Below are positions 3,571 to 54,970 of a stretch of DNA of 64,000 nucleotides, one piece after another (the stretch's first letter is position 1; every line of letters begins with the position of its first letter). The translations under genes were made by a program, and so were the position numbers. The DNA is taken from contig NZ_CP013074.1 of NCBI RefSeq assembly GCF_001889305.1, positions 186,001 through 250,000 on the forward strand. Direction: 5' to 3'. The notes under the pieces are model-generated. The model searched no databases. It saw only the letters and a program-made list of their open reading frames with translations, and was not told where the DNA came from. This DNA comes from Dehalococcoides mccartyi. GTDB taxonomy: Bacteria > Chloroflexota > Dehalococcoidia > Dehalococcoidales > Dehalococcoidaceae.

Positions 3571-4260
3571 CTAACCTCCCAGATGAAATACTGCCGGAAT
3601 AACCCAGCATGACACCACTGTCACAGCCGAAGTTATGTAGTATGCGCGGGGATAACTGGTCTTGAAATTTGCCAGTTTTGGCATACCGAATTTACCCAGA
3701 TAGTAGCCGGCGGCAAGGGTGATAGTACCGGCCAGTGCAACCGGCAAACCGGTAGTTACGATAGTATCTATCTTGCCGGCCATATCAAGCATAGGCCATT
3801 TGCCCAAACCGAACACCGAGGCTATAACGGCATATAATACTATACCCAAACCACCTGCCAGAAAGCCGGTGGTTATTTGAGCTAAAAGATGTTTTTCCAT
3901 AGCCTTTTTGAAGATAAAGGCTACCGCTCCGAAGGCAACTGCTTCCATTATGATGGCTATGGCGGGGTTTATTACATAAGCCGAAAATACCGGTTCGCCG
4001 AATATAAACGCGGAGAAGGGTTTGAAAGCGGCTGCAATGACACCCAGCAGGGGAATCAGGGCAGGTTTTTTTGTAATGCTCAGGAATATAGCCATAAGGG
4101 ATATAGCCAAACCGCCCATAACTGCCCCTTGATTGGCAAAATGAATTGCGTGCAGGAAACCTCCCAGTGCCATTTCCAGAAGCCCCCAAACAGAGCCTGC
4201 AACTGCCAGGGTCAGTACGGCTGGGATACGGTTTTTTTCAGGGTTTAAATATGTACTCAT
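3571..4260 (-). CDS. Integral membrane protein of unknown function in the molybdoenzyme operon
   Basis: This 229-residue protein has about six hydrophobic segments. An early GSVWGLLEMALGGF helix carries an acidic residue, and a loop follows it with AIHFANQG. I do not recognise a characterised family; the size and compact helix pattern recall substrate-binding components of small-molecule uptake systems, but no partner ATPase is nearby. It starts at ATG 4260 behind GAGGAGAC, 22 bases after the catalytic subunit, and its stop touches the NTPase-MobA start. Its place between a molybdoenzyme and its cofactor gene suggests a role in cofactor or substrate supply or in enzyme assembly. That is inference from context. 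Confidence 0.75.
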   Translation of the reverse strand: MSTYLNPEKNRIPAVLTLAVAGSVWGLLEMALGGFLHAIHFANQGAVMGGLAISLMAIFLSITKKPALIPLLGVIAAAFKPFSAFIFGEPVFSAYVINPAIAIIMEAVAFGAVAFIFKKAMEKHLLAQITTGFLAGGLGIVLYAVIASVFGLGKWPMLDMAGKIDTIVTTGLPVALAGTITLAAGYYLGKFGMPKLANFKTSYPRAYYITSAVTVVSCWVIPAVFHLGG

Positions 4261-4282
4261 AATCAGTCTCCTCTTGCTTTAG

Positions 4283-7200
4283 TTAGATATTAACTTTTTC
4301 CAGTCTGACCTTGGTATCGTAGAAAACTGCACTGCCTCCAATGGTATCAATCAGGCAGGTATTTTTCAGATAGGGGTCTACTCTCATGGCAGCGTTGGCA
4401 TTGACACCCTTGGTACGTTTTGTCTCACCCGGAATCAGCTCACCGTCAATGGTGATATCCAACCCACCGTAGGCAAAGTGGCCGTACCCCAGTGAGAAGG
4501 CTACTACCCCGGGGCGGATACCCTGCATAATGCTTAGTTTGGCGTTCATGGGCCATTCCTGCCCGTTACGCAGATTCCAGACACCCCTGGGGTTGCTTTC
4601 GGATACTACCCTGACTATATCTGTTTCGGTCAAGCCAAGCCTGTCCGCATCAGCTTGATTAATAAGTATCGTATTTTCAGGCAGCAGGGGGTTCAGATAA
4701 TAGTTGCTGGCGGTGGTGGGAGTGCGGGCAATCTCTCTGTAGGTGATTAAGTTCAGGTCATACCCATTCTTTTCGTCATTCAGTTCCTGCCCGTAGCAAT
4801 CACGCCCGGCGGTAATATAACAGGCATGGCCGGTAATGGGCGCACCCGTTTGCGAGTTTTTAACTTCGGTGGTTTTTTCCAGAAATACATTGAGCAGACG
4901 GCCGTATTTGTTGCCCAGCTGCTGATTAGCCGGGTAGCCACCCTCATAGTCCTGGAAGCGGCCGCCTCTGTTCAGCATGTATACAACCTTTGGCCAGTTT
5001 TCACCCGCCAGGCTTCGCCAGCGTTCAAGATTGTAAATGTTGTTTGGCATATGGCGTCTGGCTTGGGTAAATATCCGTATTTCTTCTTCGTCTGCATCAG
5101 GCACAGCATCAGAGCCGTCAGCTTTTTCACCGAAAGCCAGATTTGCTGCCATCCTAAGGTAAAGGTCATCAAAATGGCTAAGAGGGATACCTGCGCCCAG
5201 TCCGTCCGGCCCGAATCCCGGCAAGCCTATTTTTTCGGCCAGACCCAGCAGCATGGCTTCCATTGAAAGGGGAATATCCTGCCCGAATACTTTTACTATT
5301 TCCACCAGCGGGGCAATAGCGGGCTGTCTGACCGGCTGGGATTTGAACGGGATAGTATTCTGGCTGCCGGCAAATTCCCAGCGTTCCATATTGGTCAGGT
5401 CCGGGAAAATATAATCTGCATACATGGATGTTTCACTGACCACTATATCCGTAACAACCAGCAGGGGCAATTTCGCCGTATCTGTCAGAAACTCCAGAGC
5501 GGTATGGCCGGCCGGGACTACGTAAACAGGTGAACCCATGTGCAGGAAAAGAGCCTTGATAGGGTAGGGATAAGCATCTCCTGCCGAAGGGATAACCTCT
5601 TGATAAATATCTTCCGAAAGGGGATACCAGTTCCGCTTGGCCGGGTAGCCCTGACTCTTAAATAGGGTGGTATCCTCGTATACATTTCCGTGCCTTACTA
5701 TATTTACACCGGATGGTGTGAGTGCGCCGGGTTTCATCTTGCCCAGATTAAAGGGGCCACCGGCTTTGCTGCCGCTGATGTCATAGGCAGAGCCTTTGAG
5801 CATGCCTCCCTGCCAGTCATAGTTGCCTATAAGCATATTCAGATTCCACCAGGCAAGGGCGTTATAAAAGCCGTTTGTATGCTGGCTGACTCCTCGGTGG
5901 ACATCCGCCGCCGCTTTTTTGCCGTGGCTGGTAAATTCATAAGCTATTTCGGCAAGGTCATCTGCCTTGACCCCGCAGATATCGGCCCATTCCTCCAGAG
6001 TGTGGCTGGAAGCTTCGTCACGGAGTATCTGCAAACTGCTTTTCACCCGTACACTATTTATAACAGTATCAACCAGCAGTTCGCCTTCAGCCGCATTTAC
6101 TGTGTCATTTGGGTCAAACCGGGTAGGCTCTCCATTTTTCATAATAAGCGGAGTGTCAAAGCTGAAGCTGCCCTGTTCCAATCCTATATCCGAAGCTCGA
6201 AGAAGCCTCTCAGCCTTGCCTTTGTCATCTATCTTTACCAGCCAGGTGGAGCCGCTCCAGGTAGGTTCTCCATCTGCATTAGCCGCGGCTTTATTGGCAT
6301 TTGCCAGATATCTGGCGTCATAGCGGTTGTTATCAAATATCCAGCGGATTAATGCCAGCGCCAGTGCCCCCTCGGTGCCGGGTTTAGCCGGAAGCCATTT
6401 CCAGGCCTTTGAAGCAGCCTTGGAGAAGCGCGGGTCTACTACGGCGTATTTCATCCGTCCGCTGTCTAGTCCGTCTGCTATCCGCATGGCGCGGCTGGTC
6501 GGGCCGAAGCTGGCCTCGAAGGGGGATGCGCCGGTAAAAATAACAAATTCGCTTTTGCCTATGTCTGCCATCCAGTAAAATTTATCACCTTCAAGAAATG
6601 CGCCGGTTGAGGAATCAAACCTGGCACTTAGGGCTTTTGATGCCTGAAACAAACTGCCCTGACAAACTGTTGTGTGCCCGTGAGCGTTTATAGAGCCCAT
6701 GGCGTCATGGGTAAACCGCTTGATGAAGTCCACCCGTCCGCCCTGAGTCCGCCCGAACATAAAGCAAAAACCGTTGTTCTTAGTGCCCAAATCAGGGTGG
6801 TCGGGGTCTATAAATTTGTCCAGATAATCCCGGTGTTTTTCTTTAAAAGCCTCTACCAGAGCTGATTTTTTAGTTTCATCTTTTTCAGCCCAGATAGCCT
6901 TTATATCTGTGCTGATAGTCTTGGTGATTTCGGGTGAACGCAATGCCCAGATATCTTTCAAACCTTCAACTGTGCGGTTTTCTTCACCGGGAACGTTTGA
7001 AAAGAGTTTGCCGCCGCTGGCTATTTCTTCTACTGCCTGGTCAAAGGGAATGCTCTTCCATTTGTTGGAGCCGCGGGGACCGTCACGTTTTATCACTTTG
7101 ACCAGTCGGAACGGGTCATATGATGTTTGGGCACCCGAATGTCCTTTGGGGCAGATGCTGGCATCTGTCAGGGCAGATGTTGTCACCGGAGTTTTATAGT

Positions 7201-7495
7201 CCAGCTGGGGCATCATATTCCAGGGGCTGAACGGGTTTCCGTCCACTTTGGCAATGACGCCGTCAATCAGCTTTACTTTTATACTGCACTGAGTGGCACA
7301 CTGCTGACAGGTGCTGTAGATGATATCCTCAGGCTTGGATAGGGTATAGTCGTTGTTGCCCAGTATCTTTCTGGGTTGGGTTACCAGTTCGCAGCCGGAC
7401 AGCAGGGCGGTTCCTCCCAATAAAGCGGAAACCTTTATAAAATTGGCCCGGGTTATACCCCCGGAGGGATTTTTTGCTGCTCTTTCTTTATTCAT
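4283..7495 (-). CDS. Molybdopterin oxidoreductase catalytic subunit, TtrA/PsrA type
   Basis: This is a CISM-family catalytic subunit of about 1070 residues, close in size to tetrathionate reductase TtrA. An N-terminal [4Fe-4S] site is formed by CQQCATQC and a later CPKG, and the molybdenum ligand is probably the cysteine in GHTTVCQGS, as in the sulfur-compound reductases. The leader reads TRANFIK where a Tat motif TRRxFIK is expected, so the second arginine is alanine. It ends in LLSGC, a possible lipobox with Cys35. I chose ATG 7495, with GAGGAAG upstream, over an in-frame ATG at 7516; it overlaps the end of the membrane subunit gene by 8 bases. The likely place is the outer face of the membrane, reducing a sulfur oxyanion, polysulfide or related acceptor. 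The substrate cannot be read from sequence. Confidence 0.85.
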   Translation of the reverse strand: MNKERAAKNPSGGITRANFIKVSALLGGTALLSGCELVTQPRKILGNNDYTLSKPEDIIYSTCQQCATQCSIKVKLIDGVIAKVDGNPFSPWNMMPQLDYKTPVTTSALTDASICPKGHSGAQTSYDPFRLVKVIKRDGPRGSNKWKSIPFDQAVEEIASGGKLFSNVPGEENRTVEGLKDIWALRSPEITKTISTDIKAIWAEKDETKKSALVEAFKEKHRDYLDKFIDPDHPDLGTKNNGFCFMFGRTQGGRVDFIKRFTHDAMGSINAHGHTTVCQGSLFQASKALSARFDSSTGAFLEGDKFYWMADIGKSEFVIFTGASPFEASFGPTSRAMRIADGLDSGRMKYAVVDPRFSKAASKAWKWLPAKPGTEGALALALIRWIFDNNRYDARYLANANKAAANADGEPTWSGSTWLVKIDDKGKAERLLRASDIGLEQGSFSFDTPLIMKNGEPTRFDPNDTVNAAEGELLVDTVINSVRVKSSLQILRDEASSHTLEEWADICGVKADDLAEIAYEFTSHGKKAAADVHRGVSQHTNGFYNALAWWNLNMLIGNYDWQGGMLKGSAYDISGSKAGGPFNLGKMKPGALTPSGVNIVRHGNVYEDTTLFKSQGYPAKRNWYPLSEDIYQEVIPSAGDAYPYPIKALFLHMGSPVYVVPAGHTALEFLTDTAKLPLLVVTDIVVSETSMYADYIFPDLTNMERWEFAGSQNTIPFKSQPVRQPAIAPLVEIVKVFGQDIPLSMEAMLLGLAEKIGLPGFGPDGLGAGIPLSHFDDLYLRMAANLAFGEKADGSDAVPDADEEEIRIFTQARRHMPNNIYNLERWRSLAGENWPKVVYMLNRGGRFQDYEGGYPANQQLGNKYGRLLNVFLEKTTEVKNSQTGAPITGHACYITAGRDCYGQELNDEKNGYDLNLITYREIARTPTTASNYYLNPLLPENTILINQADADRLGLTETDIVRVVSESNPRGVWNLRNGQEWPMNAKLSIMQGIRPGVVAFSLGYGHFAYGGLDITIDGELIPGETKRTKGVNANAAMRVDPYLKNTCLIDTIGGSAVFYDTKVRLEKVNI

Positions 7496-8669
7496 CACCG
7501 GCTTCCTCATTTCCAATTCTGATAGGTATCAGTTTCATCATCTTGGCTACAATGTAAAATACCAGAATGACGGCGGCGGTAATACCCGCTGAAAGTGCCC
7601 ATTCGGGCAGGCTGGGGATATAACTGTCTATGTATCGGCCATCTACTATGGGGCTGGATAAGAAATCTGCCCCGGCCACTATCTGAGCCGGAATGATAAA
7701 ATTTAAACGGGCAACAGCCGCCCCAATCAGTACCAGAACGCCTACGGTAAGTCCCCAAGCCGGTTTCTTAGATAAACCGGGTTTGGACAGGATTTTTATC
7801 AATGCACCCAGAGCTACCACAATACCCAGACCCATCTGGACTATCCAGAAGCCGTACCAGTACTGTCCGAACATTATATAGTTGGCGGCCTCAATAGTAG
7901 GCGGGGTAGCGTCATATATGCCCACAAACAGCACTGAGCCTATTATGTAGGTAATGGCAAGCAGCAGGGTCATGGTGGAAATAACCATAGTCTTGGCTAG
8001 ACGGGGATAGCCGGGGCTGGTTTTATCCCCGTACAGGGCAACTATTATACGTGAAAGGGCGAATCCGGCGGACATACCGAAGATAGGGAAGAGTACAGGG
8101 AAAAGTCCTACGCTCCAGAATGAATGGGAAGATTGGGTGGAAAGGGTAAAGCCGACCGCGCCGCTGGCAATGACTGCTACCGGAAAGCCCAGAATCATCA
8201 GCCATTTTATTACCGGTTCTTTGCGGAAAGGCAGGCGTTTCTGAGGCATAAACAGAACAAACAAAATTGCGGCTGTAGCCAGTGCAATCAGGGTATAAAT
8301 CCAGACGGACCAGGCCAGCACCGAATCAAAATTCGGGTGCAAAAATACGTTCATAACCCGTTCGGGTCGGCCTTCATTGATAAGAATATGTACCAGACCG
8401 GCACCCAGGCTGGTCAGTGAAGCCAGCATGAATATTTTACCCGTGCCGGCAAAAGTTTTAACTTTAAAAAGAAGATCAAGCGATGCTATGAAAAACATAC
8501 CGGCTGCGGTACTGGCAAAAAACACGTAGAGTGCCATCCACAAGCCCCAGACTACGAAACTGCCTAGGCCGAGCATTTGCTGACCGTTGTTGAGGAGCAT
8601 CAGAAACCCCCAGACTCCGGCAGCAAGGGAAAGGATTAATATGCCCAGTGCTATCCTTTTCCAATTCAT
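7488..8669 (-). CDS. NrfD/PsrC-type quinone-interacting membrane subunit
   Basis: The 393-residue protein has about ten hydrophobic segments and the general plan of NrfD/PsrC/TtrC anchors, which pass electrons between a membrane quinol pool and a partner Fe-S subunit. A conserved-looking acidic and basic loop (NEGRPERVMNVFLHPNFDS) follows the third helix. The start at 8669 has GGAGGAGT upstream. The gene lies 20 bases after the Fe-S subunit and overlaps the catalytic subunit, so the three should form one complex. Dehalococcoides is reported to respire largely without quinones, so the true electron partner may differ from the family norm. Confidence 0.88.
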   Translation of the reverse strand: MNWKRIALGILILSLAAGVWGFLMLLNNGQQMLGLGSFVVWGLWMALYVFFASTAAGMFFIASLDLLFKVKTFAGTGKIFMLASLTSLGAGLVHILINEGRPERVMNVFLHPNFDSVLAWSVWIYTLIALATAAILFVLFMPQKRLPFRKEPVIKWLMILGFPVAVIASGAVGFTLSTQSSHSFWSVGLFPVLFPIFGMSAGFALSRIIVALYGDKTSPGYPRLAKTMVISTMTLLLAITYIIGSVLFVGIYDATPPTIEAANYIMFGQYWYGFWIVQMGLGIVVALGALIKILSKPGLSKKPAWGLTVGVLVLIGAAVARLNFIIPAQIVAGADFLSSPIVDGRYIDSYIPSLPEWALSAGITAAVILVFYIVAKMMKLIPIRIGNEEAGDE

Positions 8670-8689
8670 GGTTTACCGTACTCCTCCCG

Positions 8690-9628
8690 CTAAAATAAAT
8701 AATAAACTGAGGGGTCAGTGCCCAACTCTGATTTAAGTTGGATAATGCCCGGGTTTGCTATAAGCTCCGAAACCAGACTGTCAGGGTCATTGGCGTCACC
8801 GAAGTAATTCACCCGGCCGATACAGGTGGTAACACAAGCCGGCAGCATACCCTTTTCCAGACGGTGCAGGCAGAAATGACATTTACGGGCGTTGCCGATA
8901 GGCGAATCCCGCTTGGGTGTGCGTGAATGCGCGTTGCCGTATTCAAAATTGGTCGTACTCTGCCAAACTCCGCCTTGTTCATAACCCAGCACCAGACCGG
9001 AGTCCTCAGGTTCGTCTTCTAGATAGTTGTCACCGTAATCCATAGTGCGGGCGGTATAGGGGCAGGCTACAATGCAAAAACGGCAGCCTATACAGCGCTG
9101 GTAGTCAATAACCACTATCCCGTCCGGCTGTTTAAAGGTGGCACCTACCGGGCAGACTTTGGTGCAGGGGGGGTTATCACAGTGCATGCAGGGGCGGGGA
9201 GTAAAGCGTCTGGAGACATTGGGGTACTGCCCCATTTCCTCGTCCATAACAAAACGGTAAATTACTCCCGGAGGTAATTTGTTTTCCGAGACGCAGGCTT
9301 CGGTGCAGGCATGGCAGCCGACACACTTCCTAAGGTTGATTACCATAGACCAGTGGCGTTCTTCAGCCGGTTTCTGCATGGCCCGGCGAAGGTCTGCCTG
9401 CATACGGATCAGGGGGTCTTCTTTGGTAGAGCCGGGGACAAATGCTGTTTCTTCCAGCGGGAAGCTCACCGTAGATGGGGGTGCCACAGCCGCCGAAAGT
9501 TTTTGGGCACGTTCGTCCAGCTTTAGTATTGCCGCCAGTCCCAGCACGCCTCCGGAACTTTTTATAAAGTCTCTGCGTGTCGGGGGCGGGATTGACCGGT
9601 TAGTCCCTTTTTTGCCTTTATCTGTCAT
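8690..9628 (-). CDS. Tat-exported four-cluster ferredoxin subunit (PsrB/TtrB type)
   Basis: This 312-residue protein has a canonical Tat motif, TRRDFIK (residues 17-23), before a hydrophobic stretch. Four cysteine groups follow: [38 protein letters not shown] and [20 protein letters not shown]. This is the arrangement of the electron-transfer subunit in polysulfide, tetrathionate and related reductases. It is the first gene of the operon, with AGGAGT before ATG 9628. Its Tat signal may export the catalytic subunit by co-transport, which would explain the defective Tat motif there. Confidence 0.9.
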
Positions 9629-9738: not shown

Positions 9739-9775
9739 GGTATTAGGGGGGTATTAGTCCTAAGGTACTAGTACC
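9739..9775 (-). promoter_or_regulatory. Palindromic operator motif upstream of the molybdoenzyme operon
   Basis: On the coding strand of the operon the sequence reads GGTACTAGTACC followed by GGACTAATACC, and a further TAATACC lies 11 bases on. The same core, AAAGTACTA(A/G)TACC, is found upstream of hup and hym in the same orientation relative to the genes. It lies 110-150 bases before the first start codon. The binding protein is unknown. Confidence 0.55.
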
Positions 9776-9919
9776 ACTTGAGTAAAGTATAATAAATAAA
9801 TTACCTCGTTGTCAATTTATTCAGGTTTACGTTTATTGTCAGAAATAATATAGCACAGACTTCAGACATATTGGGATATGACTATAAGATGTACCCGTTT
9901 ATCGCTCTAGATATTTGCG

Positions 9920-16580: not shown

Positions 16581-18161
16581 TTAGTAAACGCGGAAGCGGC
16601 TGATTTCATTGCCGGTGGGTGAGACCAGATGAACGGCACAAGCCAGACACGGGTCAAACGAGCGGACAATGCGAACCAGCTCAAACGGATTATCGTTATC
16701 ACGTACCTTAGTACCGACAAGAGCCTGCTCAACAGGACCGTAAACACCCTGATTATCTTTGGGTGAACAGTTCCAAGTGGAGGGCACTACGCACTGGTAG
16801 TTGCTTATCTTGTGGTTTTCAATCTTTATCCAGTGGCCAAGAGCACCGCGGGGAGCTTCCCAGAGACCCATGCCTTCGGCACTTTCGGGTATTTCGTAAT
16901 CAGCGCACACAGGTTCGCCAATCTTGAGTTCCATAGCCCACTTGACCATTTCATCAGCTACGATCTTGCATTCAAGGGCACGGGCGGCATGTCTGCCGAG
17001 TGTGCTGAAAAGGGCGGCAGGGCCGGCACCGAAATGAGCCAAGGTATCGTTTACCATCTTCTGAACCACGGGGTCACCGGCTACGTAGTTAACCACCATA
17101 CGAGCCAGAGGGCCTACTTCGTAGGGGGTATTCTCGTATCGGGGGGCTTTCAGCCAGGAATAGCCGTCCGGCTTGGTAAATTCAGGTTCGGTTACTTCGT
17201 TCAGGGGGTATTCATTGGTTTCACCGCTGAACCAGCTGTATTTGATTGATTCGGTAATCTTGTTGGGATCAAAGGTGCGGAGTTTCAGGTCAGAAGCGGA
17301 GACCACACCCTGAGTGAAGAGTCTCTGGCGGGTAGCCAGATTAGTGCCGTTTGCTTCAAGATCAAACACACCATAGCTGAGCAGATTGCCGCAACCCACA
17401 CCGATACCGAAGTAATCAGGATAGGTTTCGGCTACTGCAATAACGTCAGGCAGATATACATTGTCAATAAAGTGACGCAGGGTATTCAGCTTGCTCATAA
17501 AGTTTGAGATGCTGTCTATGCTGGGGTGTGAAGTAACACCGCCGGCTACCACTGCTACACTGTGCGGCATGCGTCCGCTGTAAATAGCGGAAAGTTCGTG
17601 AGCCAGACGGCGCATGTTCAAAGCTTCAACATAATGGGCAACTGCGGCCTGGGCAACCTTCTTGGGAAGGCGGTAATCACCTTCGTATCTGGGGTAGAAG
17701 GGAGCCAGCATGGACATATCACCGGCAGCCAGAGCCCGGGCAATAAAATCCTTTACTTTTAAAAGTTCAGGATCAGTACCATCATAATCGGCTACTTCGG
17801 TTACGTCTACGAAATCCAGAGCGGCCAGATGGTAAAAATGAACTATATGGGAAGCAATATAGTTAGCACCCTGAATAAGGTTGCGGAGTATCCGCCCGTT
17901 ATTCGGTATTTTGTCAGCTACGCCAAAGGCGGAGTCCAAGTTTAAAGCGGCGGTAGTGCCGTGGGATGTGGGGCAGACGCCGCAGATACGCTGGGTAATA
18001 TGAACAGCATCACGCGGGTCACGGTCTTTCATAAATATTTCAAAGCCGCGGAACAGAGTGCCGACACATTTGGCATCTTTAACCTCACCGCCGTCTACGG
18101 TGGCTTCGATTTTTAGATGACCTTCAATCCTCGTTATGGGATCAATTACTATCTTCTGCAT
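16581..18161 (-). CDS. hupL: [NiFe] uptake hydrogenase large subunit
   Basis: The 526-residue protein carries both nickel-binding motifs: RICGVCPTSH near residue 63, and DPCLACAVH near the end. Fifteen residues beginning LVSPTGNE follow the terminal histidine and are expected to be cut off by the protease encoded next. The N-terminus IDPITRIEGH is typical. ATG 18161 is chosen because GGAG lies seven bases upstream; a TTG four codons earlier is in frame but overlaps that site. With HupS and HupX it forms the periplasmic H2-oxidising module that feeds electrons to reductive dehalogenases in Dehalococcoides. It has no signal of its own and should be co-exported with HupS. Confidence 0.95.
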   Translation of the reverse strand: MQKIVIDPITRIEGHLKIEATVDGGEVKDAKCVGTLFRGFEIFMKDRDPRDAVHITQRICGVCPTSHGTTAALNLDSAFGVADKIPNNGRILRNLIQGANYIASHIVHFYHLAALDFVDVTEVADYDGTDPELLKVKDFIARALAAGDMSMLAPFYPRYEGDYRLPKKVAQAAVAHYVEALNMRRLAHELSAIYSGRMPHSVAVVAGGVTSHPSIDSISNFMSKLNTLRHFIDNVYLPDVIAVAETYPDYFGIGVGCGNLLSYGVFDLEANGTNLATRQRLFTQGVVSASDLKLRTFDPNKITESIKYSWFSGETNEYPLNEVTEPEFTKPDGYSWLKAPRYENTPYEVGPLARMVVNYVAGDPVVQKMVNDTLAHFGAGPAALFSTLGRHAARALECKIVADEMVKWAMELKIGEPVCADYEIPESAEGMGLWEAPRGALGHWIKIENHKISNYQCVVPSTWNCSPKDNQGVYGPVEQALVGTKVRDNDNPFELVRIVRSFDPCLACAVHLVSPTGNEISRFRVY

Positions 18162-18191
18162 TTTCTTCTCCAAAGGTAAGATTACGGTCTA

Positions 18192-19256
18192 CTAACCCTT
18201 TTTCGCGGCATTCCGCTTGGCTTTTTTAGCGAGCTCTACAGCAGCCACACCGGCAGTCAGTACCACGGCAGTGCCGGCAATACCGATAGCCAGTTTGTCA
18301 GTACTATTGATAACAGGCGGGGCTTCAAACATGGGAGAAACCTCATCCGGGAAGCCGGGGTGAGCACAGCCGATACACGGCGAATCAGCTTCCACGCACC
18401 AACGGGTTTTATTGTTCCAAAGCCTGTCAGAACAATCAGCATATGTCACCGGACCTTTGCAGCCTACAAGGAACAAACAGTAAGGCTCAGACAGCTTGGT
18501 GGCAAATAAACCCTTTTCATAGTGGCCGCGGCGCGGACACTGGTCATGAAGCAGTTTGCCGTAGTAAGCCTTGGGGCGACCCATGTCATCAAGGTCAAGT
18601 GCATCAAGCCCGCTCATAAGTACGGTAGCCAGAGTGCCCACTACCCAATCCGGGTGGGGGGGGCAGCCAGGCAGATTTACAACCGGGGTAGTTATATTGT
18701 GCTCTTTAAGAATCTCTGAAACGGCTTTGGCGCCAGTGGGGTTGGGGGCAGAGGCAGTGATGCCTCCGAAGGCGGAACAAGTACCGGCAGCTACCACGGC
18801 CAGTGCCTTGGGAGCAAGGTTCAGTACATGCTCAAGCATGGTGATACCTTCGCCGTCTTTTTCGCCGATTTCAGCGTAAACTCCGTCATCTTTAAGAGGT
18901 ACAGAACCTTCGATTACCAGTACAAACGGTCCTTTGGCGGCAGTATCGGTAATAGTGCTCATGGCCAAATCACCCTGAGCGGCCATAATGGTGGGGTGGT
19001 ACTGCATGGATACATGAGTACCGGGCACTACCGAAGTCAGCAGTAAGTCCTGGATAGTGGGTGAGACAACGTTGATAGTAGAGATAGTGCAGCCATTGCA
19101 GCCTGCACCCTGCAGCCATATAACCGGGATTTCTTTCAAAGCCTCGGCGAACATTTTTTCAAACTCGGGGAGCTTTAAAGCACCCAGACTCAGGGCGGCA
19201 GTAGAGCCGGCGGCTAGCTGTACAAAATCCCGTCTAGTAAGTTTAGTATTAAACAT
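18192..19256 (-). CDS. hupS: [NiFe] uptake hydrogenase small subunit, Tat-exported and membrane-anchored
   Basis: The 354-residue protein begins with a Tat signal (TRRDFVQLAAGSTAALSLG, residues 7-25). Cysteines for the proximal cluster occur in GAGCNGCTIS and later AAGTCSAFGG and LPGCPPHPDW. The medial and distal cluster ligands lie in the second half (DQCPRRGHYE, GCKGPVTYADC, CIGCAHPGFPD). A C-terminal hydrophobic helix (IGIAGTAVVLTAGVAAVEL) followed by lysines is a membrane anchor. It sits between hupX and hupL. The Tat signal places the complex on the outer face of the membrane. Confidence 0.95.
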   Translation of the reverse strand: MFNTKLTRRDFVQLAAGSTAALSLGALKLPEFEKMFAEALKEIPVIWLQGAGCNGCTISTINVVSPTIQDLLLTSVVPGTHVSMQYHPTIMAAQGDLAMSTITDTAAKGPFVLVIEGSVPLKDDGVYAEIGEKDGEGITMLEHVLNLAPKALAVVAAGTCSAFGGITASAPNPTGAKAVSEILKEHNITTPVVNLPGCPPHPDWVVGTLATVLMSGLDALDLDDMGRPKAYYGKLLHDQCPRRGHYEKGLFATKLSEPYCLFLVGCKGPVTYADCSDRLWNNKTRWCVEADSPCIGCAHPGFPDEVSPMFEAPPVINSTDKLAIGIAGTAVVLTAGVAAVELAKKAKRNAAKKG

Positions 19257-19309
19257 TTTTCCTACTCCATTCCAAAGTGGTTCTTTTGTCTAAACCCGCT
19301 TACGCCGGT

Positions 19310-20113
19310 CTAGTGCTTGCCAGCCTTATTTTCAGCATGCTCGGCATCGTGTGCCTGAGCCTGAATTCTGCGGCCGCGGAAGTACCATACACCAACCATC
19401 AGCGAAGCTACTATGGAGATTTCCAAAGGTATATTGCCAAGGAATTCTCTGGTAAAGCTGGGGAAGAACTCATGCTCGTGCATGTCAAAGCCGAGTTTTT
19501 CGGGATGGACGCTGCTTAAGTATAAAACATGAGTACCGCCGGCTTCTTTTTCGCCGTAGACATAGGGGTAATATCTGTCAGGGTTGTTTGAAAGTCTTTC
19601 ATAGGCTTCGGCAAGCAGGTCAGCCCGTTCGCCGAATTTAATAGCGCCGGTGGGGCAGGTAGTTGCACAAGCCGGTTCCATGCCTTCATCTACCCTGTTC
19701 CAACACATAGTGCATTTGGTGATTTTAGCCCAGTTGTCATCCCACTCAAATTTGGGGATTTGGAAAGGGCAGGCATTTTGACAATAGCGGCAGCCGAAGC
19801 ATTTATCTTGATCCCAGACTACTGCGCCGTTAGGCCGTTTGTGGAGGGCACCGACCGGACATACTGAAACACAGGCCGGTTCATAGCAGTGTAAACATCT
19901 TTTATGAGCGAAGATCCATTGAAGTTTTCCGTCTTCTTCAATCTCCCTGCACTCCAGCAGGTTGTAGTTGAATGCATTCTGTTCCAGGGGATTGGTCACT
20001 TCAGGACTGAAAGTTGTCTTGACAGCGGGGTTTTCGTTCCACTGTTTACAGGCTACCTGGCAGCCTCGACAACCAGTACATCTAGTGGTATCAATCAGCA
20101 TTCCATTAGGCAT
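19310..20113 (-). CDS. hupX: Four-cluster ferredoxin subunit HupX
   Basis: This 267-residue protein has four [4Fe-4S] motifs: CTGCRGCQVACKQW, CLHCYEPACVSVCP, CFGCRYCQNACPF and CTMCWNRVDEGMEPACATTC. A C-terminal membrane helix around LEISIVASLMVGVWYF is followed by positively charged residues. This is the plan of formate dehydrogenase beta subunits (FdnH type). No Tat signal is present, so export would depend on HupS or the protein may face inward. It is the first gene of the hup operon. In Dehalococcoides it links the hydrogenase to the respiratory supercomplex, which fits a link between HupS and the next electron carrier. Confidence 0.92.
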   Translation of the reverse strand: MPNGMLIDTTRCTGCRGCQVACKQWNENPAVKTTFSPEVTNPLEQNAFNYNLLECREIEEDGKLQWIFAHKRCLHCYEPACVSVCPVGALHKRPNGAVVWDQDKCFGCRYCQNACPFQIPKFEWDDNWAKITKCTMCWNRVDEGMEPACATTCPTGAIKFGERADLLAEAYERLSNNPDRYYPYVYGEKEAGGTHVLYLSSVHPEKLGFDMHEHEFFPSFTREFLGNIPLEISIVASLMVGVWYFRGRRIQAQAHDAEHAENKAGKH

Positions 20114-20259: not shown

Positions 20260-20275
20260 AAAGTTCTAATACTTT
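20260..20275 (+). promoter_or_regulatory. Proximal palindromic motif upstream of hup
   Basis: AAAGTTCTAATACTTT has the inverted halves AAAGT and ACTTT and differs at few positions from the hym site AAAGTACTAGTACC. It lies 147 bases before the hupX start codon. It is a weaker match than the distal site. Confidence 0.4.
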
Positions 20276-20382
20276 CCTTCTGCCTTAAGTCCGTTGGCAC
20301 TAGGCCTTTTTTCGGCCAATAGCAGACGGAGTTCTGATTGGTAATTGATGTATTGTAACATACAGGTTTTTACATCGTCAAA

Positions 20383-20407
20383 GGGGTATTAGTACTTTGA
20401 TACTAAG
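20383..20407 (-). promoter_or_regulatory. Distal palindromic motif upstream of hup
   Basis: On the hup coding strand the core AAAGTACTAATACC matches the hym site at 13 of 14 positions. An outer inverted pair TTAGTA/TACTAA with a six-base spacer surrounds its centre. The same core with three changes is found upstream of the molybdoenzyme operon, followed in both cases by a run of C residues. Confidence 0.6.
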
Positions 20408-20843
20408 TCTTAATCGTAAAGTAAAAAATATTGTATATATTTTTACAAAAGATTATAAGGAACTAATATTTTTGGAAGTTATCTGTAATAGAGCAGGCGG
20501 AATACCTTGCGGTTTGTCTGCTAAGCGAGGCATTTTAACACCCTTAATACTGAGTGTCAAACAGGTTCTTTGCTTTATAAATACGGTAGGCTGAACACCT
20601 GTTCAGTTTGCTTAAGGCGGTACGGATGCAAAAGGATGCTGTTTTCTTCTATGGAAGAGTGTATGGCAAGGAAAAGCTGACGCAGGAGGTTTTAACTTAT
20701 CTGGTTGAGTAAACTTAGCCAGAGATGGTATCTAGAGAGTAACAGCATCTGACATGGCTAATACGATAAACCTGATGTGATTTGAATAAATAGCCAGGTT
20801 TTTCCTCTATAGTATTCTGTTTGCAGCAGTATCTGGATAAGCA

Positions 20844-24720: not shown

Positions 24721-25263
24721 CTAAACCAGCATTTCGTCACGTACCACCTTAGCGGCCTGGGGTTTGGCAAACATATCCATCAGGGTCAGGGCAAAATCCA
24801 TGGCGGCCTGAGGGCTTCGCCCGGTAATAAGTTTGCCTTCCGCCTTTACCCGCAGGTCACAGGCAGTACAGTTTTTTAGCAGGTGTTTAACCCCCGGATA
24901 TATGGCAACCTCTTTGCCGTTTATCACCCCGGCTCTGGAAAGGACTGCCGGACCGGCACAGATAGCCGCCAAATATTTGTTTTCGGTATGGGCAGTGCGG
25001 ATAAGCTCAAGCACCCGCTGGTCTTTGCCCATATTTATAAAGCCGGGATTACCTCCGGGCAGAACTAGTACTTCGTAATCTGTGGTCTTTAGGTCATCTA
25101 TATACATATCCGGCATGATGCGGATTCCCCTTGAGCCGCCGGTAAGACCGTTTTTAAGCCCCACTATCTTAACCTCAAGGTCTGCCCGCCGGAGGATATC
25201 CGTAATGGTGCAGAACTCTATTTCTTCAAAACCCTCGGCTAACAAAACGGCAAAGCGGCTCAT
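24721..25263 (-). CDS. DJ-1/PfpI family protein
   Basis: The 180-residue protein has the class I glutamine amidotransferase-like fold with an acidic residue in AEGFEEIE, and the reactive cysteine in AAICAGPAVLSRAG. Family members act as glyoxalase III, deglycases, proteases or stress proteins; the subtype is not fixed by what I can see. ATG 25263 is chosen for its GGAGGAAAC ribosome site, not the ATG six codons earlier. A methylglyoxal-making gene (mgsA) exists at 45117, so a glyoxalase-like role is possible but speculative. Confidence 0.85.
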   Translation of the reverse strand: MSRFAVLLAEGFEEIEFCTITDILRRADLEVKIVGLKNGLTGGSRGIRIMPDMYIDDLKTTDYEVLVLPGGNPGFINMGKDQRVLELIRTAHTENKYLAAICAGPAVLSRAGVINGKEVAIYPGVKHLLKNCTACDLRVKAEGKLITGRSPQAAMDFALTLMDMFAKPQAAKVVRDEMLV

Positions 25264-42331: not shown

Positions 42332-42430
42332 AAATTTCCCCCTGCGGCTGCACTTGTGCACATTTATATATCCAATAGTACTAAAATATGGTAAAAGGTT
42401 GCAATACCCCCGGGTATTTACCCTCCTGTC

Positions 42431-42459
42431 TTGCCGAAAATACCCTCCGGCTTTATACT
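42431..42459 (+). promoter_or_regulatory. Promoter placing the transcription start at the phoP-like ATG
   Basis: TTGCCG (42431-42436) and TATACT (42454-42459) are 17 bases apart. Seven bases after the -10 box is the A of ATG 42466, so the transcript is predicted to be leaderless; no ribosome site lies between. Confidence 0.6.
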
Positions 42460-42465
42460 TTAGCC

Positions 42466-43158
42466 ATGCCTGAGCATAAAATACTGGTAGTTGAAGATGA
42501 CGCCACTCTGAGGGAGCTTTTGTGTTATAACCTTGCCAAGGAGGGGTATACGTTGGAATGTGCCGAAGACGGGCTGAAGGCACTGGGTATTTACCGCCTG
42601 CTTAAGCCGTCATTGGTTATACTGGATGTGATGCTGCCGGGTATAGACGGCTTTGAACTTTGCCGTCTTATCCGTACAGAGAGCAGTGTTCCCATACTTA
42701 TGCTGACCGCTCGTTCAAGCGAGTCTGATAAGGTAAACGGGCTGGAAGCCGGGGCGGATGATTATCTGTCCAAACCCTTTGGCATGAGGGAATTGCTGGC
42801 CAGAATGAAGGCTCTCCTTCGCCGCAGCCAGACGCAAAACTCCCAAACAGAGACAACAGGCGGGCTGAAAATAGGTGATTTGGAGATATTTATTGAACGC
42901 CATCTGGTCATGCGGAACGGGGTGGCTCTGGATTTTTCACCTAAAGAATTTGATCTGTTTAGTTTTATGGTGCAGAACCGCTGCCGGGTTTTCAGCCGTG
43001 AACAGCTGCTGGAAAAGGTCTGGGGTTACGATTATCCCGGAGGGACCCGCACTGTAGATGTGCATATAAGCTGGCTTCGCCAGAAGATAGAGGCCGACCC
43101 CTCCAGTCCCCGTCATCTTATAACGGTGCGGGGAACTGGTTACAAGTTTGAGGAGTGA
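42466..43158 (+). CDS. phoP: OmpR/PhoB-family response regulator, PhoP-like
   Basis: The 230-residue protein has a receiver domain (VVEDDATL, phospho-acceptor in LVILDVMLPGIDGFE, LTARSSESD, SKPFGMREL) and a C-terminal winged helix (DFSPKEFDLF, YPGGTRTVDVHISWLRQKIE, ITVRGTGYKF). The following kinase gene, the Pho-box repeats and the pst operon downstream support PhoP/PhoB identity. The start is ATG 42466; the upstream extension has no similarity and holds the promoter. Confidence 0.88.
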   Translation: MPEHKILVVEDDATLRELLCYNLAKEGYTLECAEDGLKALGIYRLLKPSLVILDVMLPGIDGFELCRLIRTESSVPILMLTARSSESDKVNGLEAGADDYLSKPFGMRELLARMKALLRRSQTQNSQTETTGGLKIGDLEIFIERHLVMRNGVALDFSPKEFDLFSFMVQNRCRVFSREQLLEKVWGYDYPGGTRTVDVHISWLRQKIEADPSSPRHLITVRGTGYKFEE

Positions 43159-50681: not shown

Positions 50682-50995
50682 GCCGTTACCGTTCTGAAAT
50701 ATTTTTTACATTATATCAGGGTTAAGCCTGTTAGGGGATAGCCAAGCCTTGTATTATATGGTAGTATATATAAAGTACTAGTACCTTTCTTTACCCAATA
50801 CGGCAATAGCGTATACATTCAGTAACTTACCCACGAATGGAATACGGTGCTTAATGGCAAACATTTGCCTATTGTTTTATTAGTTTGTAGCTATAAATAT
50901 TATTATAATCCACTAATTTGATATTGTTTGCCGTTATATGCTAGTATGTACAGGTCTTTTACGCCCCCTATTAAAATAACCGGAGTTACTTCAAT
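50682..50995. other. 314-base divergent region before hymA
   Basis: It contains the palindromic motif at 50761-50785 and AT-rich DNA with a TATAAT at 50904-50909 that could be the hym -10, though its -35 is poor. No coding frame is seen. Confidence 0.5.
50761..50785 (+). promoter_or_regulatory. Palindromic operator motif upstream of hymABCD
   Basis: AAAGTACTAGTACC (50772-50785) differs at one of 14 positions from the distal hup site, and its centre GTACTAGTAC is a perfect palindrome. A TAGTATATA stretch precedes it as a TAGTATC stretch does at hup. It lies about 210 bases before the hymA start. Confidence 0.6.
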
Positions 50996-51463
50996 ATGGA
51001 AAGTATCTGGAAAGAAAAAGTAGACGGCGTCATTACCCAGAGCGGAAGCTCTCGGCTCTCCCTCCTTCCATGTTTGGAAGCGGTTCAGGAAGAGTGTGGC
51101 TACATACCCCACGAAGCTGTAAATTATTTGAGGGAATGCTTAAGCATTCCCTCAATTGATATTTACGGCATGATTACCTTTTACAGCCTGCTCTCCACTA
51201 ACCAAAAGGGAAAGTACGTTATCCGCCTGTGTAATTCGCTACCCTGTTACCTGAACGGTACGGAAAACATTCTGGATACCCTGGTGGACAACCTGGGTAT
51301 AGAACCGGGCCAAACCACTCTGGATCAACGTTTTACCCTGGAGCTGGTACCCTGTCTGGGATTATGTGACCAGTCACCGGCTATGGTAATTAACGGGGTG
51401 GTTTACGGTAAGCTAACTGCTCAGTTGGTAACCGAAGTCCTGGACGAATTGAGGACTTACTAA
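50996..51463 (+). CDS. hymA: [FeFe] hydrogenase NuoE-like subunit
   Basis: The 155-residue protein is a thioredoxin-fold NuoE homologue with the four [2Fe-2S] cysteines in CNSLPC (spaced pair) and VPCLGLCDQSPAM. It forms the small electron-transfer subunit with HymB. It has GGAG ten bases before ATG 50996, and the next gene starts one base after its stop. Confidence 0.92.
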   Translation: MESIWKEKVDGVITQSGSSRLSLLPCLEAVQEECGYIPHEAVNYLRECLSIPSIDIYGMITFYSLLSTNQKGKYVIRLCNSLPCYLNGTENILDTLVDNLGIEPGQTTLDQRFTLELVPCLGLCDQSPAMVINGVVYGKLTAQLVTEVLDELRTY

Positions 51464-51464
51464 G

Positions 51465-52718
51465 ATGAAAGACGTGAAGATTATTACCCGTCATCTGAAC
51501 ACTGCCAATTCAGCTGATATTGATGTATATCTGGCTGACGGCGGTTACCAGGCCCTTAAGAAAGCTTTGTCTATGACCCCGGAGGAAGTGATTGCCGAGG
51601 TCAAACGCTCAAAGCTGGTGGGCAGGGGGGGAGCGGCCTTTCCCACTGGGCTCAAATGGGAGCTTACCCGCAAGGAAAAGGCCAACCCGAAATATATTGT
51701 CTGTAATGCCAGCGAGGGCGAACCGGGCACTTTTAAGGACCGGTTGATACTTAAAAATGACCCCCATATGGTACTGGAAGGTTTTATTATTGCCGCTTAT
51801 GCGGTGGGCACTTCCCAGGGCTTTATTCACGCCCGTGAGGTTTATACTGAAGAGATAGAGCTTTTCCAGAAAGCCATAGACCAGGCAACCGAACGCGGTT
51901 TTCTGGGGCAGAATATCATGGGGAGCAATTTCTCGCTGGATATTCAGTTTTACAAGAGTGCCGGTGCTTATATCTGCGGTGAGGAAACTGCCCTTTTTGA
52001 GTCCCTTGAAGGGCACAGAGGTATTCCCGCCGCTCGCCCGCCGTATCCGGTGCAGGTGGGGCTTATGGATAAACCCACTACGGTTAACAACGTAGAAACT
52101 CTCTGCAATGTTCCTGCCATTATAAATAACGGGGCGGACTGGTTCGCTTCAATAGGCCATCCGGACTATCCCGGTACCAAGCTTTTCTGCCTTTCCGGCA
52201 ACGTGAAAGAACCGGGTGTTTTTGAAATGCCGCTGGGAACCAACCTGAAGGACTTGCTTGAGGCCGGGGGGGGCGTAGACGGCAAGTTCAAGGCGGTTTT
52301 ACCGGGCGGCATATCTTCCAGCCTGCTGACCGAAACTGATATCAGTCTGGATTTCAAGACGCTGGCCAAGGCCGGTACTATGCTTGGGTCAGGCGCGGTT
52401 ATTGTTATAAACTCCGACACCAGTATGGTCAATGTAGCCTCCAACGTAGCCCACTTCTTTGACGAAGAGGGTTGCGGCAAGTGCTCTATCTGCCGCGAAG
52501 GTACTCGCCGGGCGGCTGAAATCCTGAGCCGCTTTTCCCGCGGGCAGGGTAACCGCAATGAACTGGAGTGGCTGCTGGAACTGCATGAGGTAATGAAAGA
52601 TACTGCTTCCTGCGGTCTTGGGCAGGTGGCCCTGAATGTGGCTGCCAGTGCTATCCGTAACTTCAAGGGTGAATTCTTGGCGCAGGTGCGTAAGGAGGAA
52701 GGCGTATGGTTACGCTAA
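51465..52718 (+). CDS. hymB: [FeFe] hydrogenase NuoF-like flavoprotein subunit
   Basis: The 417-residue protein has the NAD(H)- and FMN-binding motifs GRGGAAFPTGLKWE, GEPGTFKDR and GEETALFESLEGHRG. The [4Fe-4S] ligands are in CGKCSICREGTRRAAEIL with the later CGLGQ. It is shorter than HydB/HndC proteins of about 600 residues: no N-terminal [2Fe-2S] extension and no C-terminal ferredoxin domain are present. It should exchange electrons with a pyridine nucleotide, or with another carrier in this organism. Confidence 0.92.
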   Translation: MKDVKIITRHLNTANSADIDVYLADGGYQALKKALSMTPEEVIAEVKRSKLVGRGGAAFPTGLKWELTRKEKANPKYIVCNASEGEPGTFKDRLILKNDPHMVLEGFIIAAYAVGTSQGFIHAREVYTEEIELFQKAIDQATERGFLGQNIMGSNFSLDIQFYKSAGAYICGEETALFESLEGHRGIPAARPPYPVQVGLMDKPTTVNNVETLCNVPAIINNGADWFASIGHPDYPGTKLFCLSGNVKEPGVFEMPLGTNLKDLLEAGGGVDGKFKAVLPGGISSSLLTETDISLDFKTLAKAGTMLGSGAVIVINSDTSMVNVASNVAHFFDEEGCGKCSICREGTRRAAEILSRFSRGQGNRNELEWLLELHEVMKDTASCGLGQVALNVAASAIRNFKGEFLAQVRKEEGVWLR

Positions 52719-54427
52719 ATATTGACAACAAGCAGATAAGCGTACCTGAAGGTACGACTATTATGCAGGCCGCCAAACAGGCCAATATTAATATTCCCCA
52801 CCTGTGTTATTTCGAAGGCCTGAAAAGTTACAGCGGCTGCCGGGTATGTGTGGTGGAAATAGAGGGTGAACCCCGTTTGGCTACATCCTGCTCACGTAAG
52901 GTAGCCGAAGGGATGAAGGTTAATACCCATTCTGCCAGAGTCCGCCGCGCCCGCCGCACTATACTTGAAATTTTGCTGGCCAATCACCCACAGGACTGTT
53001 TTAATTGTGAACGCAACCAGAACTGTGACTTATTGCGGCTGGCGTTTGAATGCGGAGTTAAAAAGCTGCGCTTTGAAGAAAGCGAAAAGCGGGTACTGCC
53101 TATAGACAGTACCAGCCCCAGCATTATCCGTGATCCCAATAAATGTATTGCCTGCGGACGGTGTGTCCGCGTCTGCCACGATATACAAACAGTAAATGCC
53201 ATAGGTTTTATAAATAAAGGTCCGGATACCATGGTGGCAACCTCTATGGATAGGGGTATGGGCAATGTTGCCTGTGCCAACTGCGGCCAGTGTATACTGG
53301 TCTGCCCGGTGGGTGCTATCAAGGAACGCTCGGCGGTGGATGCTGTCTGGGCGGCCATAGCAGACCCGACCAAACACGTAGTTGTTCAGGAAGCCCCTTC
53401 GGTCAGGGTTTCTCTGGGTGAAGAGCTGGGCTTGCCGGCAGGTACGCTGGTTGCCAAAAAGATGTATGCCGCTTTAAGGCGTCTGGGTTTTGACGCCGTA
53501 TTTGATACCAACTTTACCGCTGACCTGACCATTATGGAAGAGGGTTCGGAACTGGTGGAACGGGTTAAGGATGGTGGGGTGCTTCCCCAGATAACCTCCT
53601 GCTGCCCCGGCTGGGTCAAGTTTATGGAACACTATTATCCTGAGCTTGCGCCCAACGTTTCCTCCGCCAAGTCCCCCCAGCAAATGTTCGGGGCGGTCTG
53701 CAAGACCTATTATGCTGAAAAGGCCGGTATAGACCCCAAAACTATTATTAATGTTTCGGTTATGCCCTGTACGGCCAAGAAGTTTGAGTGCCAGCGTCCC
53801 GAAATGAATGATAGCGGTTTTAAAGACGTGGATTATGTCTTAACTACCCGCGAGCTGGCCCGCATGATAAAAGAGGCCGGTCTGGACTTTGCTTCGCTGG
53901 AAGAAGAGCCTGCCGAAGACCTGCTGGGTCTTTACACCGGTGCGGCCACTATCTTCGGAGCTACCGGCGGTGTTATGGAGGCGGCTATCCGCAGTGCCTA
54001 TACGCTGATAACCGGACGTGAACTGGAAAATCTGGACATAGAGCCGGTGCGCGGGCTGGAAGGCATAAAGACAGCCAGTGTTAATATTGACGGGTTAGAG
54101 GTTAAAGTGGCGGTGGCTCACGGGCTGGGAAATGCCCGGCACTTGCTGGAGGAGATAAAAGAGGGTACTTCACCGTATCACTTTATAGAAATTATGGCTT
54201 GCCCCGGTGGTTGTGTCGGTGGCGGAGGCCAGCCCATACGCTTTGATTCCAGCTTGAAGAAAAAGCGCGGCGAAGCCCTTTACGAAGAGGACAGAAATAT
54301 GCCCAAGCGGTGTTCTCATCACAACACCTCCGTAGAGAAGATATATGCCGATTATCTGGAAAAACCGCTCGGCAAGCGTTCTCACAAACTGTTGCATACC
54401 GAATATACAAGTCGCCCGGTGGTTTAA
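52706..54427 (+). CDS. hymC: [FeFe] hydrogenase catalytic subunit
   Basis: The 573-residue protein has a [2Fe-2S] domain (CYFEGLKSYSGCRVC), a His-Cys3 cluster (HPQDCFNCERNQNCDL), and two [4Fe-4S] motifs (CIACGRCVRVCH, CANCGQCILVCP). The H-cluster motifs TSCCPGW, MPCTAKKFE and MACPGGCVGGGGQP follow. It is a complete cytoplasmic hydrogenase with no export signal. It overlaps hymB by 13 bases and has AAGGAGGAAGG before its ATG. The hydEFG maturation genes are not in this window. Its job may be hydrogen turnover for NAD(P)H or ferredoxin supply. Confidence 0.95.
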   Translation: MVTLNIDNKQISVPEGTTIMQAAKQANINIPHLCYFEGLKSYSGCRVCVVEIEGEPRLATSCSRKVAEGMKVNTHSARVRRARRTILEILLANHPQDCFNCERNQNCDLLRLAFECGVKKLRFEESEKRVLPIDSTSPSIIRDPNKCIACGRCVRVCHDIQTVNAIGFINKGPDTMVATSMDRGMGNVACANCGQCILVCPVGAIKERSAVDAVWAAIADPTKHVVVQEAPSVRVSLGEELGLPAGTLVAKKMYAALRRLGFDAVFDTNFTADLTIMEEGSELVERVKDGGVLPQITSCCPGWVKFMEHYYPELAPNVSSAKSPQQMFGAVCKTYYAEKAGIDPKTIINVSVMPCTAKKFECQRPEMNDSGFKDVDYVLTTRELARMIKEAGLDFASLEEEPAEDLLGLYTGAATIFGATGGVMEAAIRSAYTLITGRELENLDIEPVRGLEGIKTASVNIDGLEVKVAVAHGLGNARHLLEEIKEGTSPYHFIEIMACPGGCVGGGGQPIRFDSSLKKKRGEALYEEDRNMPKRCSHHNTSVEKIYADYLEKPLGKRSHKLLHTEYTSRPVV

Positions 54428-54466
54428 GGGCAAATAATAAAACAATACGCGGGAGGAACAAAACAT

Positions 54467-54970
54467 ATGTTCAATGTCCAGAGTATTAGCCTTAGGAAAG
54501 AGCTTGTTATTGCCTTTTTGGTTATGCTGGGGCTGGCTACCGCTGCTCCGCTGCTAGGCAACCAGTATCTGACCGGTTCACTGGTAAACGCCGTTTTGTT
54601 TATCAGCGCTGTTACACTCGGCTGGAAAAATGCAGTAGCTATTGGTCTTATTTCCAGCAGTATCGCTTTGGCTACCGGTCTTTTACCCGTAGTTATGGCT
54701 CCCATGGTGCCCTTTATCATGGCGGCTAATGCTCTGCTGGTTGCAGCTTTTAGTACGCTTCGCGGCAAGAGTTTCTGGCTGGGTGCCGGAGTGGCTGCGG
54801 TTTTGAAGTTTGCTTTCCTTTGGGCTACTTCCAGCCTTGTTCTGAACCTCTTTATAGAACAGAATGTAGCTGACAAGATTGCCGGAATGATGGGTTTGAC
54901 CCAGCTCCTCACCGCCCTGATGGGTGCGGTTATGGCTTATGGTGCTCTGCGTCTGGGCAAGAAGATATAG
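54467..54970 (+). CDS. hymD: HymD-like membrane protein
   Basis: The 167-residue protein has five or six hydrophobic helices (from residues 10, 35, 50, 80, 105, 135), small size and no cofactor motifs. It follows hymC by 39 bases with GGGAGGAAC before its ATG, matching the position of HymD in similar operons. It could hold the soluble HymABC at the membrane. Its size and topology also resemble small-molecule uptake S-components, so the role is not certain. Confidence 0.75.
   Translation: MFNVQSISLRKELVIAFLVMLGLATAAPLLGNQYLTGSLVNAVLFISAVTLGWKNAVAIGLISSSIALATGLLPVVMAPMVPFIMAANALLVAAFSTLRGKSFWLGAGVAAVLKFAFLWATSSLVLNLFIEQNVADKIAGMMGLTQLLTALMGAVMAYGALRLGKKI

Follow-up and report, generated by a model that had tools for sequence, protein, structure and literature searches.

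A conserved palindromic site upstream of respiratory operons in Dehalococcoides mccartyi and related Dehalococcoidaceae

Palindromic sites with the consensus AAGTACTAGTACTT were found upstream of the hup and hym hydrogenase operons and of a molybdoenzyme operon in a stretch of 64,000 nucleotides of Dehalococcoides mccartyi (hereafter the window; positions 186001-250000 of the 1.52-Mb genome). The sites are real, conserved and specific to respiratory operons, and their spacings to the predicted promoters are fixed. Taking the genomes of the family together, this box precedes genes for each of the three organohalide-respiration modules and also the cytoplasmic hydrogenase, complex I and molybdenum-cofactor genes. 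Because a conserved site stands before genes of every module of the respiratory machinery, one putative protein probably coordinates the whole organohalide respiratory chain.

The organohalide-respiration complex consists of RdhA/RdhB, OmeA/OmeB with HupX, and HupSL (PMC6005880), and the control of organohalide respiration described so far acts locally, through MarR proteins linked to rdh genes or through two-component systems (PMC13390414, PMC2610375). A further question is how the common core (Hup hydrogenase and OmeA molybdoenzyme; PMC6005880) is coordinated with many interchangeable dehalogenases. No earlier report of the motif or regulon was found in the literature searched. A family-wide operator before all of these genes offers a bait for isolating the regulator from organisms in which genetic work is difficult, and the sites mark promoters worth measuring in bioremediation cultures.

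Sites, promoters and operons in the window

The initial annotation had placed one motif before the three operons, and all the sites it reported were located, with exact or one-mismatch cores and with the weaker second copies at hup and at the molybdoenzyme operon (Table 1). The exact core AAAGTACTARTACC occurs at 20385-20398 (-) and 50772-50785 (+), while the molybdoenzyme operon core at 9762-9775 (+) has one mismatch to it; the hup and hym cores agree at 13 of 14 positions, as had been stated. The operon identities also held: hup encodes a NiFe hydrogenase with a HupX-like ferredoxin, hym an FeFe hydrogenase of the HymABC type, and the third operon a molybdopterin oxidoreductase that has NrfD and Fe-S subunits. 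The orientation relative to the genes, which was said to be the same at all main sites, is void because the motif is palindromic, and at the molybdoenzyme operon the closer match to the core is on the other strand from the gene.

Table 1. Sites, predicted promoters and genes of the three operons, with window coordinates.
Feature	Sequence	Position	Strand	Basis
hup site 1	AAAGTACTAATACCCC (dyad)	20383-20398, element to 20407	-	sequence match
hup site 2	AAAGTATTAGAACTTT	20260-20275	-	near-perfect dyad
hup promoter, predicted		20352-20381	-	kept in three species; top promoter score for hup site 1
hup operon		16581-20113	-	Pfam NiFeSe_Hases, Oxidored_q6/NiFe_hyd_SSU_C, Fer4_11
HupL		16581-18173	-	
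HupS		18192-19256	-	
HupX-like ferredoxin		19310-20113	-	
hym site	AAAGTACTAGTACCTT	50772-50787	+	near-perfect dyad
hym extended -10, predicted	TGG-TAGTAT	50759-50767	+	promoter geometry; TGG-TATTAT in two other species
hym operon		50996-54970	+	Pfam 2Fe-2S_thioredx, Complex1_51K, Fe_hyd_lg_C
HymA		50996-51463	+	
HymB		51465-52718	+	
HymC		52706-54427	+	
Small uncharacterised protein		54467-54970	+	
Molybdoenzyme operon site 1	GTGGTACTAGTACCTT (gene strand)	9762-9777	-	sequence match
Molybdoenzyme operon site 2	TTAGGACTAATACCCC	9748-9763	-	14 bp downstream of site 1, orientation alike
Molybdoenzyme operon promoter, predicted		9786-9815	-	kept in three species; score 14.1, among the highest of the set
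Molybdoenzyme operon		3571-9628	-	Pfam Fer4_11, NrfD, Molybdopterin
Fe-S subunit		8690-9628	-	
NrfD		7488-8669	-	
Catalytic subunit		4283-7516	-	
229-aa protein		3571-4260	-	no Pfam match

With up to three mismatches to the core, 20 matches occurred in the window against 9.3 expected, and none of 100 shuffles reached 20. A symmetric matrix, trained partly on the window sites themselves, scored at least 12 at six places in the window, which were the five reported sites and position 25059 in a DJ-1/PfpI coding gene; at a score of at least 17 there were four places, compared with none in each of 12 Markov-resampled windows. No motif site was present near the PhoB-like response regulator of the window (42388-43158). 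A phage-type integrase gene lies at 767-1390, past the distal end of the molybdoenzyme operon.

The dyad of hup site 1 has an imperfect direct-repeat partner, CTTAGTATC, at a step of 14 bp and ending at 20407. Directly downstream of this site is the predicted hup promoter (-35 TTGACG, 20376-20381; 18 bp; -10 TACAAT, 20352-20357), with the dyad centre near -46. The predicted molybdoenzyme operon promoter (-35 TTGACA, 9810-9815; 18 bp; -10 TATACT, 9786-9791) has the dyad centre of site 1 about 16-17 nt after its -10, and the predicted extended -10 of hym ends 12 nt upstream of the dyad centre. Another conserved strong promoter, TTGACA-17-TAAAAT, lies at 20532-20560 (-), about 420 bp before hupX and upstream of both hup sites; a long leader at hup, or a small RNA, is possible.

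Conservation and distribution of the motif

The sites are kept before orthologous operons. All 16 dyad bases of hup site 1 were identical in three species, against an intergenic mean of 66%, and so were the inner 12 of 12 bases of hup site 2 and of molybdoenzyme operon site 1. The hym site had one difference among three species, the hym and omeA sites kept 11 of 12 inner bases, and molybdoenzyme operon site 2 was less conserved (9 of 12, three species). The site TAAGTACTAATACTTA, before a NuoE/HymA-like gene, was identical in all three species of the genus. In the second genus, molybdoenzyme sites were found in two genomes and a hup site in one: G010 (L101) has sites before hup and paired sites before the molybdoenzyme operon, and G008 (L098) has weaker paired sites before the latter.

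The omeA gene, which lies outside the window, was searched with a matrix made from the five window sites only, which makes the test non-circular. A site was found 91-114 bp upstream in all seven second-genus genomes with an orthologue (p 0 to 0.02 each). The matrix also found a site before omeA in one Dehalococcoidales genome that does not belong to the family, and there the promoter is TTGACA-17-TATTAT with the site 12 nt past its -10. With the five-site matrix, no omeA site was found at the Chloroflexota locus L315, and the more distant omeA-like loci (280 kb) contained none scoring 14 or more.

The 1.52-Mb genome has three exact copies of the core, of which the third lies about 430 bp before an rdhA gene. 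A search allowing up to one mismatch found three places beyond the window, and two of these three independent matches precede respiratory genes. One (C1:1510511, L003) lies in the gap that separates an rdhA gene from its upstream MarR gene, and another (C1:301914, L005) about 100 bp before a molybdoenzyme gene whose reading as omeA is based on its sequence and on the position of its product within the respiratory complex. The one-mismatch match at L006 was discarded as an operator, being at the apparent 3' end of a coding sequence, and was taken as chance. The link to rdhA is weak in this genome because a strong site precedes just one of its rdhA genes, which number about 25, and does so at a distance of 430 bp; local MarR and two-component regulators presumably dominate rdhA control there. 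Upstream of the rdhA gene at L003, beside the motif, are three copies of TACATGACA, one of them inverted (L003:1441-1480), which suggests a second regulator. Elsewhere in the genome, two rdhA genes are repeated 20 kb apart with their order kept (C1 1460325-1463423 and 1480352-1483456; L037/L027 and L035/L028) and with model scores that are equal or almost so; this is a likely segmental duplication.

Across 11 genomes of the family, a model built from 21 sites gave at least 108 matches (E 10 or better, best 150 candidates per genome scored), while a column-permuted control model of equal information gave none on the same scale of search (11 genomes, best 150 candidates per genome). Matches concentrated before redox operons rather than at random density, and among the matches listed for the genome of the window the five places were hym, rdhA, the NuoE-like gene, hup and the molybdoenzyme operon, all before redox operons. 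Of 43 second-genus places outside the model training, 15 preceded rdhA-type genes; ten of these genes were checked and all ten matched the RDH model, eight of them over the cut-off. Ten more places preceded other redox or molybdenum-cofactor genes (REC-ferredoxin fusions, nuoA, moaA, pyridine-nucleotide oxidoreductase), seven were by two-component genes, three preceded a gene for a small cysteine-rich protein, and eight were without an evident link to respiration. The motif was also present before a cytochrome gene and the NuoE-like gene.

With sites before the RdhA, OmeA and Hup genes, all three modules of the organohalide-respiration complex are covered. The initial annotation had proposed one regulator for two hydrogenases and a molybdoenzyme. 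Its common operator stands, being non-random and conserved, and from it we infer a single protein; the gene set is wider, and because it also holds omeA, rdhA, the NuoE-like gene, nuoA, moaA, cytochromes and REC-ferredoxin it is a respiration regulon, not merely two hydrogenases and a molybdoenzyme.

Two of the gene families met in this search have features of their own. The REC-ferredoxin protein (L187:1-1445; orthologues L177, L185, L193 and L205) joins a receiver domain to a 4Fe-4S dicluster domain (Response_reg and Fer4_22), and the motif lies about 95 bp upstream of its gene in five genomes. The cysteine-rich protein is conserved, about 55 aa long and without a Pfam match; its four cysteines lie in HCGLCHYSGYSNRCTFFDDG.CPY. 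It is driven by a consensus promoter, TTGACA-(17-18)-TATAAT, with motif copies immediately upstream of the -35 and about 25 nt past the -10 (L196:1500-1610, L198:1500-1600, L209:1530-1640) and, in L196 and L198, a third copy within the spacer.

Promoter geometry and candidate regulators

The motif has the dyad symmetry AAGTACT/AGTACTT, with G4, A6, T8, A9 and C13 invariant in 21 sites. Many rdhA promoters carry a composite, ACATCGT(A/C)CT-WWA-GTACTAGTACC, which is a direct repeat with a 14-bp step, and the same step is found at hup site 1 and in the molybdoenzyme operon pair. A collection scan, covering genomes outside the family only, contained no composite rdhA site CATCGTHCTDWRGTAYTAGTACY.

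Promoter predictions clustered at offsets of -43 (z 10.8), -17 (z 8.0) and +17 (z 7.6) from the dyad, z-scores that overstate independence because many rdhA promoters are homologous copies. The predicted -10 ends 43 nt downstream of the dyad, which is then near -50, at most rdhA genes (about 43 nt for the best predicted -10), at one response regulator gene and at hup site 2. It lies 17 nt downstream at REC-ferredoxin and some omeA genes, with the dyad in the spacer, and 17 nt upstream at omeA and the molybdoenzyme operon, with the dyad near +10. The downstream distance is 39 nt at hup site 1, 50-51 nt at cytochrome genes and 53 nt at the NuoE-like gene. By the usual logic of promoters, a dyad placed at +1 to +10 or within the spacer would block the polymerase, and one near -50 or -60 would activate. 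Since the position of the site relative to the predicted promoters varies, the sign of regulation probably differs between operons, and for the same reason a second protein with a similar site is conceivable and could own part of the set.

The sites might instead be promoter or leader-RNA elements, or chance, rather than protein operators. Several overlap predicted start sites, and the palindrome could form a 4-bp RNA stem; however, they range from about -60 to +20 around the predicted start, and the RNA-element reading was rejected because many sites lie outside the predicted transcripts. Specificity and conservation exclude chance, and this explanation as a whole is extremely improbable.

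MarR-type repressors of rdhA genes, of the Rdh2R kind and several of them with similar operators, are quite unlikely owners of the sites. The target of Rdh2R in strain CBDB1 is a direct repeat that contains short palindromes and spans the start site, MarR genes adjoin motif-bearing rdhA promoters (L168, L188/L206, L195, L003/L170), and other MarR-rdhA divergons of the window's genome contain 13-14 bp direct repeats with CTAG or TAGT. However, the MarR that neighbours the rdhA site was present in only two of three Dehalococcoides-type genomes, and the third keeps its hup, hym and molybdoenzyme operon sites. The neighbouring MarRs have recognition helices unlike one another, and the rdhA promoters linked to two-component systems share the composite site with the MarR-linked ones. 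MarR is further disfavoured because the site-rich genome G010, with at least seven site-bearing places (hup, the molybdoenzyme operon, omeA, rdhA, moaA and the cysteine-rich protein among them), has a single clear MarR, which immediately precedes a gene for a drug (MFS) transporter and is under an operator of its own, TAAGGTGCTAA/TTAGCACCTTA. When MarR genes were counted in 11 genomes, a cognate MarR was not present in every site-bearing genome, and the only clade found in all second-genus genomes precedes the MFS transporter gene. A MarR for the core sites is thus unlikely at the level of this Pfam survey, in which a divergent winged-helix protein may fall below the threshold.

As single candidates, the local rdh-type MarR was rejected, its orthologue being missing where core sites are conserved, and so were the core MarR genes, whose own operators differ or which are not conserved. 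A GntR-family regulator was likewise rejected, with no match over the Pfam cut-off in the 11 genomes, while control genomes did give matches. The operator TAAGGTGCTAA-N-TTAGCACCTTA stands before MarR genes that immediately precede a DHA2-type MFS transporter gene (L289-L299) and is conserved in eight of eight second-genus genomes. Several rdhA-linked MarR divergons of the window's genome carry other palindromes. At L058, the interval from the end of the gene on the rdhA side (1166) to the start of MarR (1393) holds a perfect 42-bp palindrome built from two 14-bp repeats, TAGTCTATATAGAC; at L056:1825-1848, the palindrome TAACATATTGTATACAATATGTTA covers the -10 between another MarR gene and rdhA and is evidently a different operator.

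That the sites serve several related response regulators (RdhP-like, OmpR type) with separate targets, and no single regulator, is possible but rather unlikely. Many sites have a histidine kinase or response regulator gene next to them (L158, L190, L192, L194, L200, L208, L213, L218), and two orthologous OmpR-type regulator genes are preceded by the rdhA-type composite, as an autoregulated activator might be. However, the usual targets of OmpR-type regulators are direct repeats with a spacing of about 10-11 bp, in contrast to the compact 14-bp dyad; MarR-linked rdhA promoters share the composite with the OmpR-regulator promoters; and, in the stretches read, no two-component gene was beside the hup, hym, omeA and molybdoenzyme operons of the window's genome.

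The favoured explanation, with a fair balance of probability behind it, is that the sites are operators of one conserved respiration regulator, a helix-turn-helix homodimer acting as roadblock or activator according to position; that there is one protein, which family it belongs to, and whether it activates or represses a given operon are stated here as the most likely assignments. Such a putative homodimer would bind the 14-16 bp dyad AAGTACT|AGTACTT, often with a half-site 14 bp away, and its Dehalococcoidaceae regulon would comprise rdhA, omeA, hup, hym, the NuoE-like gene, nuoA, the molybdoenzyme operon, moaA, cytochromes and REC-ferredoxin. Where the dyad is over the predicted start or in the spacer (molybdoenzyme operon, omeA, hym, nuoA, moaA, REC-ferredoxin), the bound protein would be a roadblock to RNA polymerase, the promoter assignment for omeA in the window's own genus being tentative; where the dyad is near -46 to -60 beside the -35 (rdhA, hup, NuoE-like, cytochrome), it would probably activate. 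A redox or electron-acceptor cue would be a signal that fits the gene set. More speculatively, and with considerable doubt, this could be a global Dehalococcoidales regulator from a family new to respiration, which would sense the redox or acceptor state and set the stoichiometry among the three modules of the quinone-free complex; through one and the same box, rdhA and hup would be activated, and omeA, hym and the second molybdoenzyme gated.

Comparison with known systems

The Rdh2R-type MarR operators of Dehalococcoides rdhA genes resemble the sites described here in having short palindromes as direct repeats before rdhA genes. They overlap a start site; at the rdhA promoters of the present set 14-bp direct repeats occur, and for most of these promoters the best predicted -10 is about 43 nt downstream of the dyad. 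Unlike these operators, the present motif stands before core respiratory operons in all family genomes; the site-bearing genomes include one in which no rdh-linked MarR was found, and local MarR divergons carry other palindromes. The Rdh2R-type repressor operator of these genes is reportedly the subject of Wagner 2013, as cited in PMC13390414, and of Krasper 2016.

The CprK/RdhK dehalobox of Desulfitobacterium (TTAAT-N4-ATTAA) is likewise a 14-bp dyad controlling organohalide respiration (PMC2610375), but its half-sites differ from AAGTA and TACTT in the consensus AAGTA-CTAG-TACTT, which does not match the dehalobox, and its spacer is free whereas the central TA is invariant here. CprK acts on rdh clusters, while the present motif is also found at hydrogenases, omeA, nuoA and moaA.

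The Trp repressor operator GTACTAGTTAACTAGTAC contains GTACTAGT, with CTAG at the palindrome centre. Both features are shared by the present motif, but the genes here are respiratory and the repeats are 14 bp apart, not 8. With FNR, ArcA and Rex, one operator stands before many respiratory operons and activation or repression is set by its position. The motif matches none of their boxes in sequence, but its multi-operon layout is alike, and a regulon of this kind is a known type of system.
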